Part shown: positions 7,034 to 11,825 of the stretch, piece after piece | Layout: the number at the start of each line of letters is the position of its first letter | Numbering within the stretch: the first letter of the stretch is position 1 | NCBI GenBank assembly: GCA_903970565.1 | Contig: CAJCJE010000796.1 | Coordinates: 1-11,825 of the forward strand | Origin: Candidatus Melainabacteria bacterium | GTDB lineage: Bacteria > Actinomycetota > Actinomycetes > Mycobacteriales > Pseudonocardiaceae | DNA: 11,825 bases | Direction of reading: 5' to 3' | Position numbers and translations under genes: made by a program | The notes under the pieces: model-generated | What the model saw: the letters and a program-made list of their open reading frames with translations, nothing else | Databases searched by the model: none | Told to the model about the DNA's origin: nothing

Positions 7034-8926
7034 ATGAAAGCAGTTCGCCGAGCGGTTGTCGCGCTCACCGTCGCCGCGGTGGGGGTGGCCATCGGGGTGC
7101 CGATCACCGCAGGCGCCCAGGACGCCTCCGCCGTCCGGCAGGCCCAGTTCGCCTCGGCCGCCCAGGAGTTCGGCGTGCCGGCCCCGGTACTGCTCGCGGT
7201 GTCCTACCAGGAATCGCTGTGGGAGGCGCACGACGGCAGGCCCAGCACCACCGGCGACTACGGGCCGATGGCGCTGACCGACCTGCCGGCCGGTGCGCCC
7301 AGTGCCAAGGGCGACGGCGCGGCCGGGCCGATGACCTCCTCGGCCTTGCACAGCCTGACCGCCGCCGCCGCCCTGCTCGGCGTCGCGCCGGCCGCGGTGC
7401 GGGCCGACCCGGCGGACAACATTCGCGGCGCGGCGGCCCTGCTCGCCGGTGACGCCAGGAAACTCGACCACGGCATCCTGCCCACCTCGCTGGACGACTG
7501 GTACGCGCCGGTCGCCGAGTACTCCGGCTCGACCGACGAGGCCGGCGCGCGCGAGTTCGCCGACGAGGTCTACGCCACCATCCGGACCGGCGCGGCCCGG
7601 CACACCGACGACGGCCAGAACCTCAGCCTGCCGGCGAACCCGGACGTGCGGCCGGACACCGGCCAGCTGGCCGAGCTGAACCTGGCCTCGCCGCCGCCCG
7701 GCCAGCAGGCCCAGTGCCCGCCGACCCTGGACTGCACGTTTATCCAGGCCGCCTACGCGGAGGACTCCAGCGCCACCGACTACGGCAACTACGACCTCGC
7801 CGACCGGCCGAAGAACCACCTGACGGTCAACTACGTCGTCATCCACGACACCGAGGAGTCCTACGCGCAGACCGTGTCGGACTTCCAGAACCCCAGCCAC
7901 TACGCCAGCGCCAACTACGTGGTGCGCGGCACCACCGGCACCGTGACCCAGATGGTGGCCGACAACGACGTCGCCTGGCACGCCGGCAACTGGTACGTGA
8001 ACATGCACGCCATCGGCGTCGAACAGGAGGGTTACGCCGTACAGGGCGCGACCTGGTTCACCGAGCGGCTCTACCAGACCACCGCCGCCCTGGTGCGCTA
8101 CCTCGCCGCCTACTACCACGTGCCGCTGAACCGCCAGCACATCATCGGCCACGACGACGTGCCAGGGGTCAACACGGCCGGCATTCCCGGTATGCACTGG
8201 GACCCGGGGCCGTTCTGGAACTGGACCCACTTCATGAACCTGCTCGGCTCCCACATCGTGCCGACCGGGAGTCCGCGCGCTCCGGTGGTCACCATCAACC
8301 CGGACTTCGCCACGAACATCCAGCAGGTGACCGACTGCGACGCCGGCCAGCCGGTCGCGGCGCAGGCGTCCAGCTTCGTCTACCTGCGCACCGCGCCGAG
8401 CGCGACCGCGCCGCTGTACAACGACCCCGGCCTCGACCCGACCGGCACCGTCGGCACCACCTGCGCCTCGGACTGGGGGGACAAGGCCAGCAGCGGCCAG
8501 CAGTTCGTGGTCGCCGGCCGGTCCGGCGACTGGGTCGCCATCTGGTGGGACGGCGCCAAGGTGTGGCTGGAGAACCCGACTGCCCGCCCGGTGCTCACCC
8601 CGACCTCGACCCTGGTCGTGCGACCGAGGCCGGGCGAGACCTCGGTGCCGGTCTACGGCGCCGCCTATCCCGAGGCGAGTGCCTACCCGGCCGCGATTCC
8701 GGTGCGAACGTTGACGCCCCTGCCCTACACCATCCAACCGGGACAGTCCTATGTGTACGGTGGAGTGACGCCGACGGACTACTACTACGCGCAGACCATC
8801 GACAACAGCATCCCGGACGACCACACGGATGTCGTCGGCAGCCAGCGTTATCTGGAGATCCAGCTCGGCCACCGGGTGGCGTTCGTGCTCGCCGCCGACG
8901 TCCAGGTGGTGCCGGCCTTCGGCTGA
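7034..8926 (+). CDS. Secreted N-acetylmuramoyl-L-alanine amidase with lysozyme-like N-domain
   Basis: A 630-residue exported peptidoglycan hydrolase. Residues 1-29 are a Sec signal peptide (basic start, hydrophobic core, likely cleavage after AGAQ or nearby). About 33-110 resemble a transglycosylase-type fold: VLLAVSYQESLW has the QES motif with candidate catalytic Glu60, followed by GDYGPMALTD. About 260-405 form an Amidase_2/PGRP domain with expected zinc ligands His271 (VVIHDTEE), His373 (IIGHDDV) and Asp390 (WDPGPF), plus the conserved HAGNWYVNMHAIGVEQEG. The amidase should cleave MurNAc-L-Ala bonds in the wall. The C-terminal third (SSFVYLRTAPSA..., SGDWVAIWWDGAKVWL) looks like SH3-like wall-binding repeats. 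Whether the N-domain is active is uncertain. The gene stands alone and converges on the P450 across a hairpin. Confidence 0.92.
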   Translation: MKAVRRAVVALTVAAVGVAIGVPITAGAQDASAVRQAQFASAAQEFGVPAPVLLAVSYQESLWEAHDGRPSTTGDYGPMALTDLPAGAPSAKGDGAAGPMTSSALHSLTAAAALLGVAPAAVRADPADNIRGAAALLAGDARKLDHGILPTSLDDWYAPVAEYSGSTDEAGAREFADEVYATIRTGAARHTDDGQNLSLPANPDVRPDTGQLAELNLASPPPGQQAQCPPTLDCTFIQAAYAEDSSATDYGNYDLADRPKNHLTVNYVVIHDTEESYAQTVSDFQNPSHYASANYVVRGTTGTVTQMVADNDVAWHAGNWYVNMHAIGVEQEGYAVQGATWFTERLYQTTAALVRYLAAYYHVPLNRQHIIGHDDVPGVNTAGIPGMHWDPGPFWNWTHFMNLLGSHIVPTGSPRAPVVTINPDFATNIQQVTDCDAGQPVAAQASSFVYLRTAPSATAPLYNDPGLDPTGTVGTTCASDWGDKASSGQQFVVAGRSGDWVAIWWDGAKVWLENPTARPVLTPTSTLVVRPRPGETSVPVYGAAYPEASAYPAAIPVRTLTPLPYTIQPGQSYVYGGVTPTDYYYAQTIDNSIPDDHTDVVGSQRYLEIQLGHRVAFVLAADVQVVPAFG

Positions 8927-8931
8927 ACGGC

Positions 8932-8967
8932 ACGCACTCGGCCGCGGCGGTCCGGCGTCGAGTGCGT
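8932..8967. terminator. Hairpin between the convergent hydrolase and P450 genes
   Basis: ACGCACTCG (8932-8940) and CGAGTGCGT (8959-8967) form a perfect 9-bp stem; GCCG/CGGC inside can add four pairs. It sits 5 bp after the hydrolase stop and 21 bp beyond the P450 stop on the other strand, so it may terminate both transcripts. Confidence 0.65.
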
Positions 8968-8988
8968 CAGTGCCGGGCCACCCGTGTT

Positions 8989-10044
8989 TCAGCCTCGGAC
9001 CACGCGCACCCTGACCCCGAGCAGGCCGTCGAGCGGCACCCGGCCGACGGTCTGCTCGGGGCTGACCCGGTAGCCGCCGGCGCGCATCAGGTCCATCAGC
9101 CGCTCCGCGAGAGGCAGCACCAGATGCCGGCCCCAGCACCGTTCGCTCGCGTGGCCGAAGGGCAGGTAGCCGGCCACGGTGTCCGGATCGGCCACGTCCG
9201 CCCACCGCCGTGGCCGGTAGGCGTCCGGGTCGTCCCAGAACCGAGGGTCGCGCTGGGTGAGCAGGGGAAGCAACAGCACATCGTCGGTCGGCCCGATCCG
9301 GCGATCGATGTCCGGGTACTCCGGCGAGGCGAACCGCAGCAGGTTCCACGAGGGCGGCAGCAGTCGCAGGGTCTCCAACAGGATGTGCCGGTTCGGGGTG
9401 TCGGCCGGGAACGGCGCGGCCAGCCAGCTGGCGTTGGTGACCAGGGTGGACACCGTGTTGCAGATCGGCGAGGCCATCCGGCGGTACAGGCCCATCGCGT
9501 GCAGCCGGTGCCGGAAGTCGAACTCGGTGAGCGTGCCGAAGGTATGTCTGGCCAGGTCCGACACTGCCGAATCGGCGGAGACCGAGCCACCGGGCAGCGC
9601 GGCGGCGGTGCCCAGTACGGTCCGGGACACCGCGTGCGAGGCCTCCAGTCGGCGCCTGCTCAGCAGTTGGAGCCGAAACGGATCGGCGCCGAACATCAGC
9701 TTCCGCAGGTAACAGTGTCCGACCTTCGGCCATTCGCCGGACAGGTCGATCCCGGTTTCCAGCGGTTTCCGCAGCGCGCCCCGCACGTCGCGCGTGATCG
9801 CCTGCATCAGCTCCGAGGATTCTCCTCGGGTGATGGCCTTGCCGCGAAAGGGTTTGAACGTGGGCCGCTCGGATTCCCGCATCGGCCGGGCCCACAGGAG
9901 ACGGTCGATCACGGCCGGATCGCCGACGCCGACCGTGCCGGCGTCCAACCGGAACACGGCGTCCCCGCGATGCCGGTCCAGCAACTCGGCCAGTCGCGGG
10001 GCGAACACGGTGGTCCTGGCCTGGTCCTTGGTGGAAACGTCCAT
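8989..10044 (-). CDS. Cytochrome P450, probable RiPP-modifying (atropopeptide-type)
   Basis: A 351-residue heme-thiolate oxygenase, shorter than typical bacterial P450s (~400). Seen directly: the heme loop LPFGHASERCWG with axial Cys303, the K-helix ExxR (Glu224-Arg227 in LLETLRLLPP), and PDAYRPRRW between them. The region before the K-helix where helix I is expected (about 190-207, SPICNTVSTLVTNASWL) lacks the usual (A/G)Gx(D/E)T, so the acid/alcohol proton-relay pair is missing or replaced. That is known in P450s doing radical coupling rather than hydroxylation. Start ATG 10044 has GGGGAG 8 nt upstream; the open frame to 10140 would overlap the peptide gene. It lies 77 bp downstream of the AWYGWD precursor on the same strand, evidently co-transcribed. 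Inferred role: aryl cross-linking of the precursor's Trp and Tyr side chains, as in tryptorubin biosynthesis. P450 identity is certain; the substrate is inferred. Confidence 0.9.
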   Translation of the reverse strand: MDVSTKDQARTTVFAPRLAELLDRHRGDAVFRLDAGTVGVGDPAVIDRLLWARPMRESERPTFKPFRGKAITRGESSELMQAITRDVRGALRKPLETGIDLSGEWPKVGHCYLRKLMFGADPFRLQLLSRRRLEASHAVSRTVLGTAAALPGGSVSADSAVSDLARHTFGTLTEFDFRHRLHAMGLYRRMASPICNTVSTLVTNASWLAAPFPADTPNRHILLETLRLLPPSWNLLRFASPEYPDIDRRIGPTDDVLLLPLLTQRDPRFWDDPDAYRPRRWADVADPDTVAGYLPFGHASERCWGRHLVLPLAERLMDLMRAGGYRVSPEQTVGRVPLDGLLGVRVRVVRG

Positions 10045-10052
10045 CGATGCGG

Positions 10053-10058
10053 CTCCCC
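10053..10058 (-). promoter_or_regulatory. RBS fixing the P450 start
   Basis: GGGGAG on the minus strand, 8 nt before ATG 10044. It gives the P450 its own translation start after the precursor gene. Confidence 0.6.
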
Positions 10059-10121
10059 ACGCGCAATCGGAGCGCCCGGTGAGGCCCTGACGGACCCCAC
10101 CGGGCGCGACATCGGTAGGGA

Positions 10122-10202
10122 CTAGTCCCAGCCGTACCACGCGAAGGTCTTCAGGCTTTTCTCCGGCATGATCTTGCTCTTCAGGAAGCTGACGAGCCTC
10201 AT
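10122..10202 (-). CDS. Candidate atropopeptide (tryptorubin-like) precursor peptide
   Basis: A 26-residue peptide. It begins MRLVSFLKSK, has PEKSLK before the end, and finishes FAWYGWD at TAG 10124-10122. The leader is amphipathic and basic; the last six residues, AWYGWD, match A-W-Y-x-W-x, the core layout recalled for tryptorubin A (AWYIWY). A KSLK segment just before the core is also, from memory, a feature of that precursor family. GAGGAGGT at 10216-10209 with a 6-nt spacer is a near-perfect ribosome binding site, strong evidence that so short a frame is translated. The stop is followed 77 bp on by the P450, the only tailoring enzyme needed in the known pathway. Inferred role: a ribosomal precursor whose Trp/Tyr residues are cross-linked by the P450 before the ~20-residue leader is removed by a protease encoded elsewhere. 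Positions 4 (Gly) and 6 (Asp) differ from tryptorubin. Confidence 0.85.
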   Translation of the reverse strand: MRLVSFLKSKIMPEKSLKTFAWYGWD

Positions 10203-10208
10203 CGCATT

Positions 10209-10216
10209 ACCTCCTC
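10209..10216 (-). promoter_or_regulatory. Strong RBS of the precursor peptide gene
   Basis: GAGGAGGT on the minus strand, 6 nt before ATG 10202. It is the closest match to the anti-Shine-Dalgarno complement noted in the window and decides the start of the 26-codon gene. The overlapping ATG at 10207 is closed after two codons. Confidence 0.85.
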
Positions 10217-10334
10217 GGGTCGTCGAACTTCGCCCAGCCGAGTTGTTTGACGAATCGGAACAAGATTGTCGCCGAATCCGATTCTCTGCGTCTCGTCGTC
10301 GAAAGGCGAAGGTCCACTGTCCGCTCCAACGCGG

Positions 10335-10356
10335 CTGCTGATAGCTATATCAGCAG
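10335..10356. promoter_or_regulatory. Perfect 9-4-9 palindrome, candidate operator
   Basis: CTGCTGATA (10335-10343) and TATCAGCAG (10348-10356) are exact inverted repeats around GCTA. The 22-bp symmetry and AT-rich centre in GC-rich DNA are typical of a dimeric repressor site (TetR or GntR size). It lies 133 bp upstream of the precursor start. On the minus strand TTGCTC is followed after 18 bp by TATAGC, a weak promoter-like pair overlapping the palindrome. A terminator role is less likely, as no gene ends here. Confidence 0.5.
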
Positions 10357-10554
10357 GTCAGAGGTGGGAGCAAGGGTTGGTCCGCGATAGTGGCAATACG
10401 CCACATCCGGGTAGCTCGCGCACCGTCGCGGGTGGTCGGCCGGCGCCCGGAGTCCTTCCGCGCAGGCCGTGAACTCCGGTGTCCACGGTCGCGGTGAGTA
10501 CACGGCGAACTCCCAGGAAGCGGGAGCTTTCACAGGGGCTGCACAGCGGGCAGC

Positions 10555-10585
10555 TAGACACGGTGCGCGTCGGCATCACTATCGT
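10555..10585 (+). promoter_or_regulatory. Possible promoter of the GT-C gene
   Basis: TAGACA (10555-10560) and TATCGT (10580-10585), 19 bp apart, resemble -35 and -10 elements about 75 bp upstream of ATG 10660. The spacing is long, so this is tentative. Confidence 0.3.
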
Positions 10586-10604
10586 AGGTAACTCAGGTAC
10601 GGCT

Positions 10605-10626
10605 CGGCAATGACGCCGGCAATGAC
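10605..10626. repeat. 10-bp direct repeat before the GT-C gene
   Basis: CGGCAATGAC occurs at 10605-10614 and 10617-10626, a 12-bp period, in the leader of the membrane glycosyltransferase gene. It may be local slippage or a regulator site. Confidence 0.5.
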
Positions 10627-10659
10627 TGCCCATCACCGAGAAAACCGCGAGGACCGTCG

Positions 10660-11825
10660 ATGACATTTGGTGCCACGGCCGATTCCGTGACGACGCGACC
10701 CGTTGAGCCAGGAGGCGGGGAGCCTCGGGCCGGCGGCGCATCGGCGCGGAAGATGCTGGTGATCGCGATCATTGTGCTGGCCGCGATCGCGGTGCGGCTG
10801 GCCTTCTTCACATACCAGTCCGGCGACTACACCGCGTACTTCGCCCGCTGGTATTCCTATATCAAGGACAATGGCGGCTTCCACGCGCTGAAGGACAATT
10901 TCGCCAACTACAACGAGCCGTACCTGTACCTGCTCGCCGGGCTGACCTACACCCCGATCCCGGAGTTGGCCGGTATCAAGCTGATGTCGGTCGTCTTCGA
11001 CTTCCTGCTCGCGTTCTTCGCCTACCGCATCGTGAACCTGCGCTATCCCAACCGCTGGTGGCCGATCCTGGCCGGCGCGGTCGTGCTGTTCCTGCCGACC
11101 GTGGTGCTCAACAGTTCGATGTGGGGCCAGGCCGACGCGATGTACGCCGCGTTGGGCGTCGGCGCGCTCTACTTCCTGCTGCGCCGCCGTCCGTGGCTGG
11201 CCTGCCTGTTCTTCGGTCTCGCGTTCTCCTTCAAGTTACAGATCATCTTTCTGTTCCCGCTGTTGCTGCTGCTGGTCCTGCGCAGGTACGTGCCGTGGCG
11301 GGCGCTGCTGCTGATTCCCGGCGTGTACGTCGTACTGGAGATCCCGGCGCTACTGCTCGGCGCGAGCCCCTCGACCCTGCTGTCGGTCTATGTCACCCAG
11401 ACCGACACCTACGACCAGTTGACCCTCAACGCGCCCAACGTCTACCAGTACTTCGACACCACCACCTCGACCGTCCTGCGCTACGGCGGCATTGTGCTGA
11501 CCGGAGTACTGCTGCTCGCCCTGATCATCCCGGTCGTGCTGCGGCGCATCGAGTTGACGCCGACCCGGATTCTGCTCGCCGGCACGGTGTCGGTCCTGCT
11601 GGTGCCCTACTTCCTGCCGGCCATGCACGAGCGGTACTTCTATCTCGCCGACACGCTCACCGTGCTGTCCGCGTTCCACCTGCCGCGCACGCTGTGGGCG
11701 CTGCCGATCCTGGAACAGTTCGCCTCGCTGTTCTCCTACCTGCCCTTCCTGCTGATGACCACCGGCGCCGGGCGCGGCGGCTTCGGTGGCGGCGGACGAC
11801 GCGGCGGCTTCCCCGGTGGCGCCGG
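10660..11825 (+). CDS. GT-C-type membrane glycosyltransferase (GT87-like), 3' end cut
   Basis: An open frame of at least 388 codons running off the window end without a stop. The start is ATG 10660 with GAGGA at 10649-10653, 6 nt upstream. A ~30-residue cytoplasmic head is followed by many hydrophobic helices. Landmarks are SGDYTAYFARW in the first external loop (Asp56, position of the usual GT-C acidic residue), NSSMWGQADAMYAAL (Trp155), FSFKLQIIFLFP (Lys192) and FLPAMHERYFYLADTL (His323). These are typical of polyprenyl-phosphate-sugar-using mannosyltransferase-like proteins in actinobacteria. It probably moves a sugar from a lipid-linked donor to a wall glycan or protein on the outer face; the exact acceptor is unknown. 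The visible C-terminus turns into a Gly/Arg-rich tail (RGGFGGGGRRGGF), which may continue past the edge. It diverges from the peptide/P450 unit and is probably unrelated to it. Confidence 0.85.
   Translation, partial: MTFGATADSVTTRPVEPGGGEPRAGGASARKMLVIAIIVLAAIAVRLAFFTYQSGDYTAYFARWYSYIKDNGGFHALKDNFANYNEPYLYLLAGLTYTPIPELAGIKLMSVVFDFLLAFFAYRIVNLRYPNRWWPILAGAVVLFLPTVVLNSSMWGQADAMYAALGVGALYFLLRRRPWLACLFFGLAFSFKLQIIFLFPLLLLLVLRRYVPWRALLLIPGVYVVLEIPALLLGASPSTLLSVYVTQTDTYDQLTLNAPNVYQYFDTTTSTVLRYGGIVLTGVLLLALIIPVVLRRIELTPTRILLAGTVSVLLVPYFLPAMHERYFYLADTLTVLSAFHLPRTLWALPILEQFASLFSYLPFLLMTTGAGRGGFGGGGRRGGFPGGA

Follow-up and report, generated by a model that had tools for sequence, protein, structure and literature searches.

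A predicted minimal atropopeptide cluster combining an AWYGWD core with a cytochrome P450 of unusual helix I

The window, that is, the whole stretch of 11,825 nucleotides analysed here, very probably contains a minimal two-gene atropopeptide (tryptorubin-type) cluster, because a precursor with a KSLK leader motif and a Trp at core position 2 is encoded beside a cytochrome P450 of the class type. In PMC11450843, atropopeptides are defined by precisely these elements: a class-type P450, a KSLK (or close) leader motif and Trp at core position 2. The same source describes more than 650 atropopeptide clusters collected by AtropoFinder, and refers to the xWxxWx subfamily as bitryptides. With the locus described here, this well-mapped family gains a core sequence and a P450 lineage. 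No report of its product was found in the literature, and none of the titles listed by exact-string searches with parts of the core is on atropopeptides.

The precursor gene (10202..10122, minus strand) runs from ATG to TAG, comprises 26 codons plus the TAG and encodes MRLVSFLKSKIMPEKSLKTFAWYGWD. Its Shine-Dalgarno sequence, GAGGAGGT (10216..10209, minus), was read from the sequence and is separated from the ATG by a spacer of 6 nt (AATGCG). An earlier note on this DNA had described the 26-codon gene, the GAGGAGGT placed 6 nt before the ATG and the AWYGWD end, all of which are confirmed to the base. The codons of the KSLK motif, a proposed docking anchor for the P450 (PMC11450843), are situated at 10160..10149 (minus) and correspond to residues 15-18 of the leader. 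From alignment with relatives, the core is predicted to be AWYGWD, residues 21-26 (10142..10125, minus), where the candidate bridging residues W22, Y23 and W25 are present; W22 provides the Trp at core position 2 typical of atropopeptides, and the second Trp, at core position 5, the xWxxWx pattern of bitryptides. The encoded peptide matches the NCBIfam model NF038372 (tryptorubin_fam) with 42.3 bits (E 6.8e-11, cut-off 33), the GC3 of the 26-codon frame is 0.963, and the motif [KREP][SP][LR]K..xW..[WY].{0,3}stop has a single match in the window, against none in 300 first-order Markov sequences of equal length; by GC3, Markov control and family model, this frame is more than chance. Identity as a biarylitide was also considered and rejected: the precursor has 26 residues, whereas biarylitides are by definition made from precursors of five residues, with genes of 18 bp (PMC13417212).

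The P450 gene is found on the same strand (10044..8989, minus; ATG at 10044, stop at 8989), with 77 bp between the precursor stop and its start, just as previously described; the ribosome-binding site of its own that had been attributed to it is present as GGGGAG, roughly 10 nt from the ATG, although weaker than that of the precursor. The predicted cross-linking enzyme has 351 residues (343-376 among the 119 listed homologues), and its structure model presents a P450 fold. E224, R227 and Cys303 are conserved in 91 of 91 alignment rows; the latter (codon 303, 9138..9136, minus) lies in FGHASERCWG, and the Cys of this P450 motif is the haem ligand. Judged by its length, these conserved residues and the modelled fold, the P450 looks complete. 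It is 58% identical to the P450 of the amyxirubin producer, an identity which, together with its position in the tree described below, places it among the class-type atropopeptide P450s. Its listed homologues reach approximately 395 bits or more; solved P450s do not exceed 57 bits, and three further P450s from the window's genome score 21-32 bits. In this comparison by score the enzyme does not group with small-molecule hydroxylases, a grouping that the earlier note had named as refuting its proposal. Assignment to the aminopyruvatide P450 ApyO (NF050147) was discarded, the P450 scoring 48.5 bits against a cut-off of 525. Among the homologues listed, the closest are P0004, P0005 and P0006 (76, 75 and 67% identical, respectively), known here as proteins alone; P0005 used as a query against viral contigs gave no match.

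A tree of 91 P450 rows, outside which ordinary hydroxylases were compared by score only, joins the window's P450 to P0004 and P0005 (100/99), and these to P0006 (100/99). This group is placed among the P450s of Amycolatopsis xylanica, Embleya scabrispora and other precursor-paired P450s, and the 17 rows of AWYGWI type group in a separate clade (100/100). When three long rows were left out, the two groups of the window were recovered with the same support; the branch leading to the outgroup L119 is very long, and the rooting of the tree is uncertain. The proposal of an atropopeptide/tryptorubin-like locus is thus upheld by the family-model score, the KSLK motif, W2 and the placement of the P450 among atropopeptide P450s.

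The pairing of both genes is conserved among relatives. Of 163 distinct P450s gathered, 149 (window counted) share 45% identity or more with that of the window and have a readable helix I, the 14 left out being the partial gene L218, L119 and the twelve sister-group P450s L203-L214; the unrelated P450s L005-L007 of the window's genome scored too low to enter. A readable core was found upstream in 148 of these 149 loci (window counted), in precursor genes of 23-28 residues just upstream of the related P450s, and the remaining one (Amycolatopsis echigonensis, L086) has a precursor with an in-frame TGA replacing the core Trp. The precursor frame is therefore conserved beside related P450s, as had been asked of it, in a sample where the window represents the sole genome of its genus and which falls short of the complete set of published atropopeptide clusters. 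KSLK is present in the leader of 129 of the 149 loci, window counted. As for the extent of the sampling, the scan of genome contigs gave 133 pattern matches and 132 confirmed relatives, the best 80 of those 132 being used; within the window's family, 32 of the 390 genomes searched have a match to the P450 at E <= 1e-60 (own genome counted), and the precursor model matched in 2 of 100 relatives, 3 of 397 genomes of the order and 3 of 394 of the class (own genome in each). In the genus of G952 (probably Streptomyces), the same model had matches in 44 of 392 genomes, 42 of them over the cut-off; a search of 220 genomes of the family of G952 (probably Streptomycetaceae) gave a match in 43, the distant sister group included, and 3 of 18 plasmid records contributed to the set of relatives. 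One such precursor-P450 locus was found in the window's own genome, a 75%-complete assembly.

Several loci met in this survey differ from the common pattern. The leader motifs KNLK, QSLK, TSLK and RSFK (L008, L091, L081 and L217, respectively) are outside the published list, and a motif-list search would miss the loci carrying them. L119 (G242:C1:3248000-3254500) consists of a divergent P450 whose start is overlapped by the precursor MKLVRRVKEMFESKSMRRYTWIHWS, with KSMR replacing KSLK and 18.7 bits against NF038372, below the cut-off; the same genome also holds an AWYLWI locus. The sister-group P450s L203-L214, from the family of G952, are 36-38% identical to that of the window, and 11 of the 12 loci (L203-L208 and L210-L214; none was read at L209) have 27-residue upstream peptides of type MKMIKALVKKFKKDEDLANHAWVLHVI, with W-x-x-H-x-I cores, DEDL (NDDL in L203) where KSLK is expected, and TLCDG in helix I of the P450. 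The two of these peptides that were scanned did not reach the NF038372 cut-off, and exact-string searches of the literature with the sister-group cores gave no match; they may represent Trp-His cross-linking relatives of atropopeptides.

The locus has its counterparts among named systems. It has in common with tryptorubin A and other atropopeptides the two-gene layout, the KSLK leader, the six-residue core with W2, Y3 and W5, and the single class-type P450; it differs by its Asp6, not present in the other 147 readable cores, and by Asn196 of its P450, Gly4 being common in the family. The amyxirubin locus of Amycolatopsis xylanica (L013, AWYIWW) comes from a bacterium probably of the same family as that of the window, with the same layout and Arg141 also in its P450, but has Phe196, Trp6, Ile4 and a 23-residue precursor. 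The scabrirubin locus of Embleya scabrispora (L053, ScaA/ScaB, TWFIWYS) encodes a P450 57.5% identical to that of the window, likewise non-Phe196 and with Arg141; it has, however, Leu196-Gly197 instead of Asn196-Thr197, and a seven-residue core with Phe3 and a reportedly cleaved C-terminal tail. Finally, the AWYGWI loci of Amycolatopsis, Kitasatospora and Streptomyces (for example L063, L073 and L061) have, as the window, AWYGW plus one residue and Asp339 in the P450, but Ile (or Val/Leu) at position 6, Phe196, and P450s in a clade of their own.

The earlier note had attributed a different or smaller set of bridges to Gly4 and Asp6, a suggestion that does not survive comparison with the family. 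Core position 4 is Ile in 47, Gly in 44, Leu in 29, Phe in 14 and His in 10 of the 148 readable cores (window counted), with one each of Ala, Arg, Gln and Asn; Gly4 is therefore no novelty. At position 6, the same cores have Tyr (95), Ile (41), Phe (3), Val (3), Trp (2), Leu (2), Met (1) and Asp (1), the last being that of the window and the sole acidic residue. Within this 148-core sample, Asp6 is rare and Gly4 ordinary. According to PMC11450843, the sixth core residue lies outside the usual bicyclic system, and the Tyr6 of laurentirubin is bridged via a second P450; Asp6 thus removes no standard bridge and was discarded as a cause of fewer bridges. Since AWYGWD retains W2, Y3 and W5, the substrate side predicts no loss of bridges. 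On the enzyme side, Asp339 appears in the window group (4 rows) and in 16 of 17 Gly4 rows, against 0 of 64 non-Gly rows (cores beginning in T left out), and also in two Kitasatospora P450s, P0052 and P0093, known here without cores. The best tree contains three changes of Gly4 state, and a topology in which the window group and the AWYGWI group form one clade is not rejected (p-AU 0.289); an independent origin of Gly4 in the window lineage is accordingly not established, and the link between Asp339 and Gly4 is confounded by ancestry.

The most unusual feature of the P450 is found in helix I, which spans residues 177-209 (DSSP). Codon 196 (9459..9457, minus) encodes Asn, where 142 of the 149 P450s (window counted) have Phe; the other exceptions are five Embleya-type P450s and that of Xanthomonas vasicola (L068), all with Leu, the latter paired with the core SWGLYM. 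Among the 119 listed homologues, Phe occurs in 107, Leu in nine, Asn in two (P0004 and P0005) and Ser in one. Being common to P0004 and P0005, Asn196 is a lineage change and not a reading error. These two and the window's P450 combine A192S and F196N, neither of which is found in any of the 87 other rows, as well as R181L, common also to P0006, and [AS]SHAVSR after E134 (such as EASHAVSR), the common form at 134-141 being ELTPKLTW (57 of 91 rows). From its helix, residue 196 would face the substrate; in hhalign profile alignments against known P450 structures, helix I was not believably aligned (the structure search gives ranges only), and in the alignments listed, the solved structures nearest by sequence cover no more than the C-terminal part.

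According to PMC11450843 and PMC12352619, ScaB makes monocyclic scabrirubin and brings about only a 2-Da loss even on LauA, and LauB1 converts LauA into tryptorubin B, with three modifications. As ScaB combines Leu196 with a monocyclic product, it is plausible that position 196, or its surroundings, determines bridge number. A sub-case of the atropopeptide reading, whose probability overlaps with it, is consequently that the product has fewer bridges than usual, probably just the one Trp2-Trp5 bond that scabrirubin has, by way of Asn196, with Asp6 either trimmed or left as an acidic tail. We consider this a serious possibility, somewhat short of an even chance: the window is one of only seven exceptions to Phe196, together with five P450s of the ScaB kind, and its Asn196 recurs in P0004 and P0005. 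On the other hand, the window has Thr197 where ScaB has Gly, and its core has Tyr3; a single characterised enzyme gives little to build on, and those who described ScaB themselves point to its larger predicted pocket (PMC11450843/PMC12352619). Two Embleya-type Leu196 P450s, moreover, are paired with Tyr3 cores (TWYIWYS), and residues 196/197 were for this reason rejected as a marker of Tyr3 loss; Kutzneria L081 has Phe196 and yet a core without Tyr3. In a smaller set, Tyr3 is absent in 3 of 4 non-Phe196 rows against 1 of 128 Phe196 rows, an association among related rows drawn from 351 scanned columns. That bridges are fewer or different at all, owing to the P450 rather than to Asp6, we would put forward with reserve, as something rather less probable than an even chance. 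More tentatively still, in the lineage of the window, P0004 and P0005 the changes in helix I (F196N and A192S) and the rebuilt 134-141 segment may have altered bridging on a standard W2/Y3/W5 core, giving an acid-capped WYGW-type product with one bridge or a new pattern, and residue 196 may act as a switch between mono- and polycyclisation.

The window corresponds to the whole contig C796 of a 75%-complete assembly of 1,020 contigs. In 21 of 59 genomes of the same family, genes with 75-85% identity to its RecD2 gene were found, and the contig is likely to be correctly binned, with support that is modest because the gene also matches outside the family (76 and 78% identity in 2 of 40 genomes of the same order). 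The neighbouring genes encode an ABC transporter, an Lrp/AsnC-type regulator, RecD2, a Methyltransf_19 protein and an N-acetylmuramoyl-L-alanine amidase, none of which we know as a partner of atropopeptide clusters; the amidase gene is oriented towards that of the P450, with 62 bp between its end and the latter, and a divergent gene at 10660 extends beyond the contig edge. Between the divergent genes, 132 bp 5' of the precursor ATG, lies a perfect 22-bp palindrome, CTGCTGATA-GCTA-TATCAGCAG (10335-10356), expected 0.00 times in 200 shuffles and found at one place in the whole genome with up to 2 mismatches allowed; its inner 6+6 was not found in 165 other loci (of 168), and it is a possible candidate operator.

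A decayed or silent locus, its product no longer made, is improbable. Such a fate has a precedent in Amycolatopsis echigonensis, where a full-length P450 adjoins the precursor A*YGWI (L086; L103 has the same P450 stretch), TGA standing for the core Trp codon in a locus that is apparently decaying, and a simple scan of 8800-10700 found neither sigma-70-type promoter-like nor terminator-like sites; however, both frames of the window are open, the ribosome-binding site of the precursor is strong, and E224, R227 and Cys303 are present in the P450. Least credible is an ordinary small-molecule hydroxylase beside a spurious small frame, for which the Pfam match confined to residues 222-308, towards the C-terminus of the P450, and the mostly ordinary P450s among the listed solved-structure matches might speak, but the small frame passes NF038372, with the GC3 and the absence of chance counterparts given above, and the P450 groups among precursor-associated ones.

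Returning to the atropopeptide reading, the steps of biosynthesis can be proposed by analogy with characterised relatives. In these, according to PMC11450843 and PMC12352619, a leader helix and KSLK position the core in the P450, bonds are formed among W2, Y3, W5 and the backbone, and a host peptidase frees the peptide, often cutting residue 1. The ribosome would thus make a 26-residue precursor composed of a 20-residue leader and the core AWYGWD; the leader, with its KSLK, would dock on the P450 and thread the C-terminal core into the active site, where Trp2, Tyr3 and Trp5 would be oxidatively coupled, with a Trp2-Trp5 bond at least and possibly Trp2-Tyr3 and Trp5-backbone bonds; a host peptidase would then take off the leader and, as is frequent, Ala1, perhaps with Asp6 as well. 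Sequence by itself does not reveal how many bridges are made, and what determines whether one, two or three are formed is not settled in the parts of PMC11450843 and PMC12352619 consulted. In this sense, the P450 of the window is a natural non-Phe196 variant paired with a core that retains all three bridging residues, and is well suited to a test of position 196.
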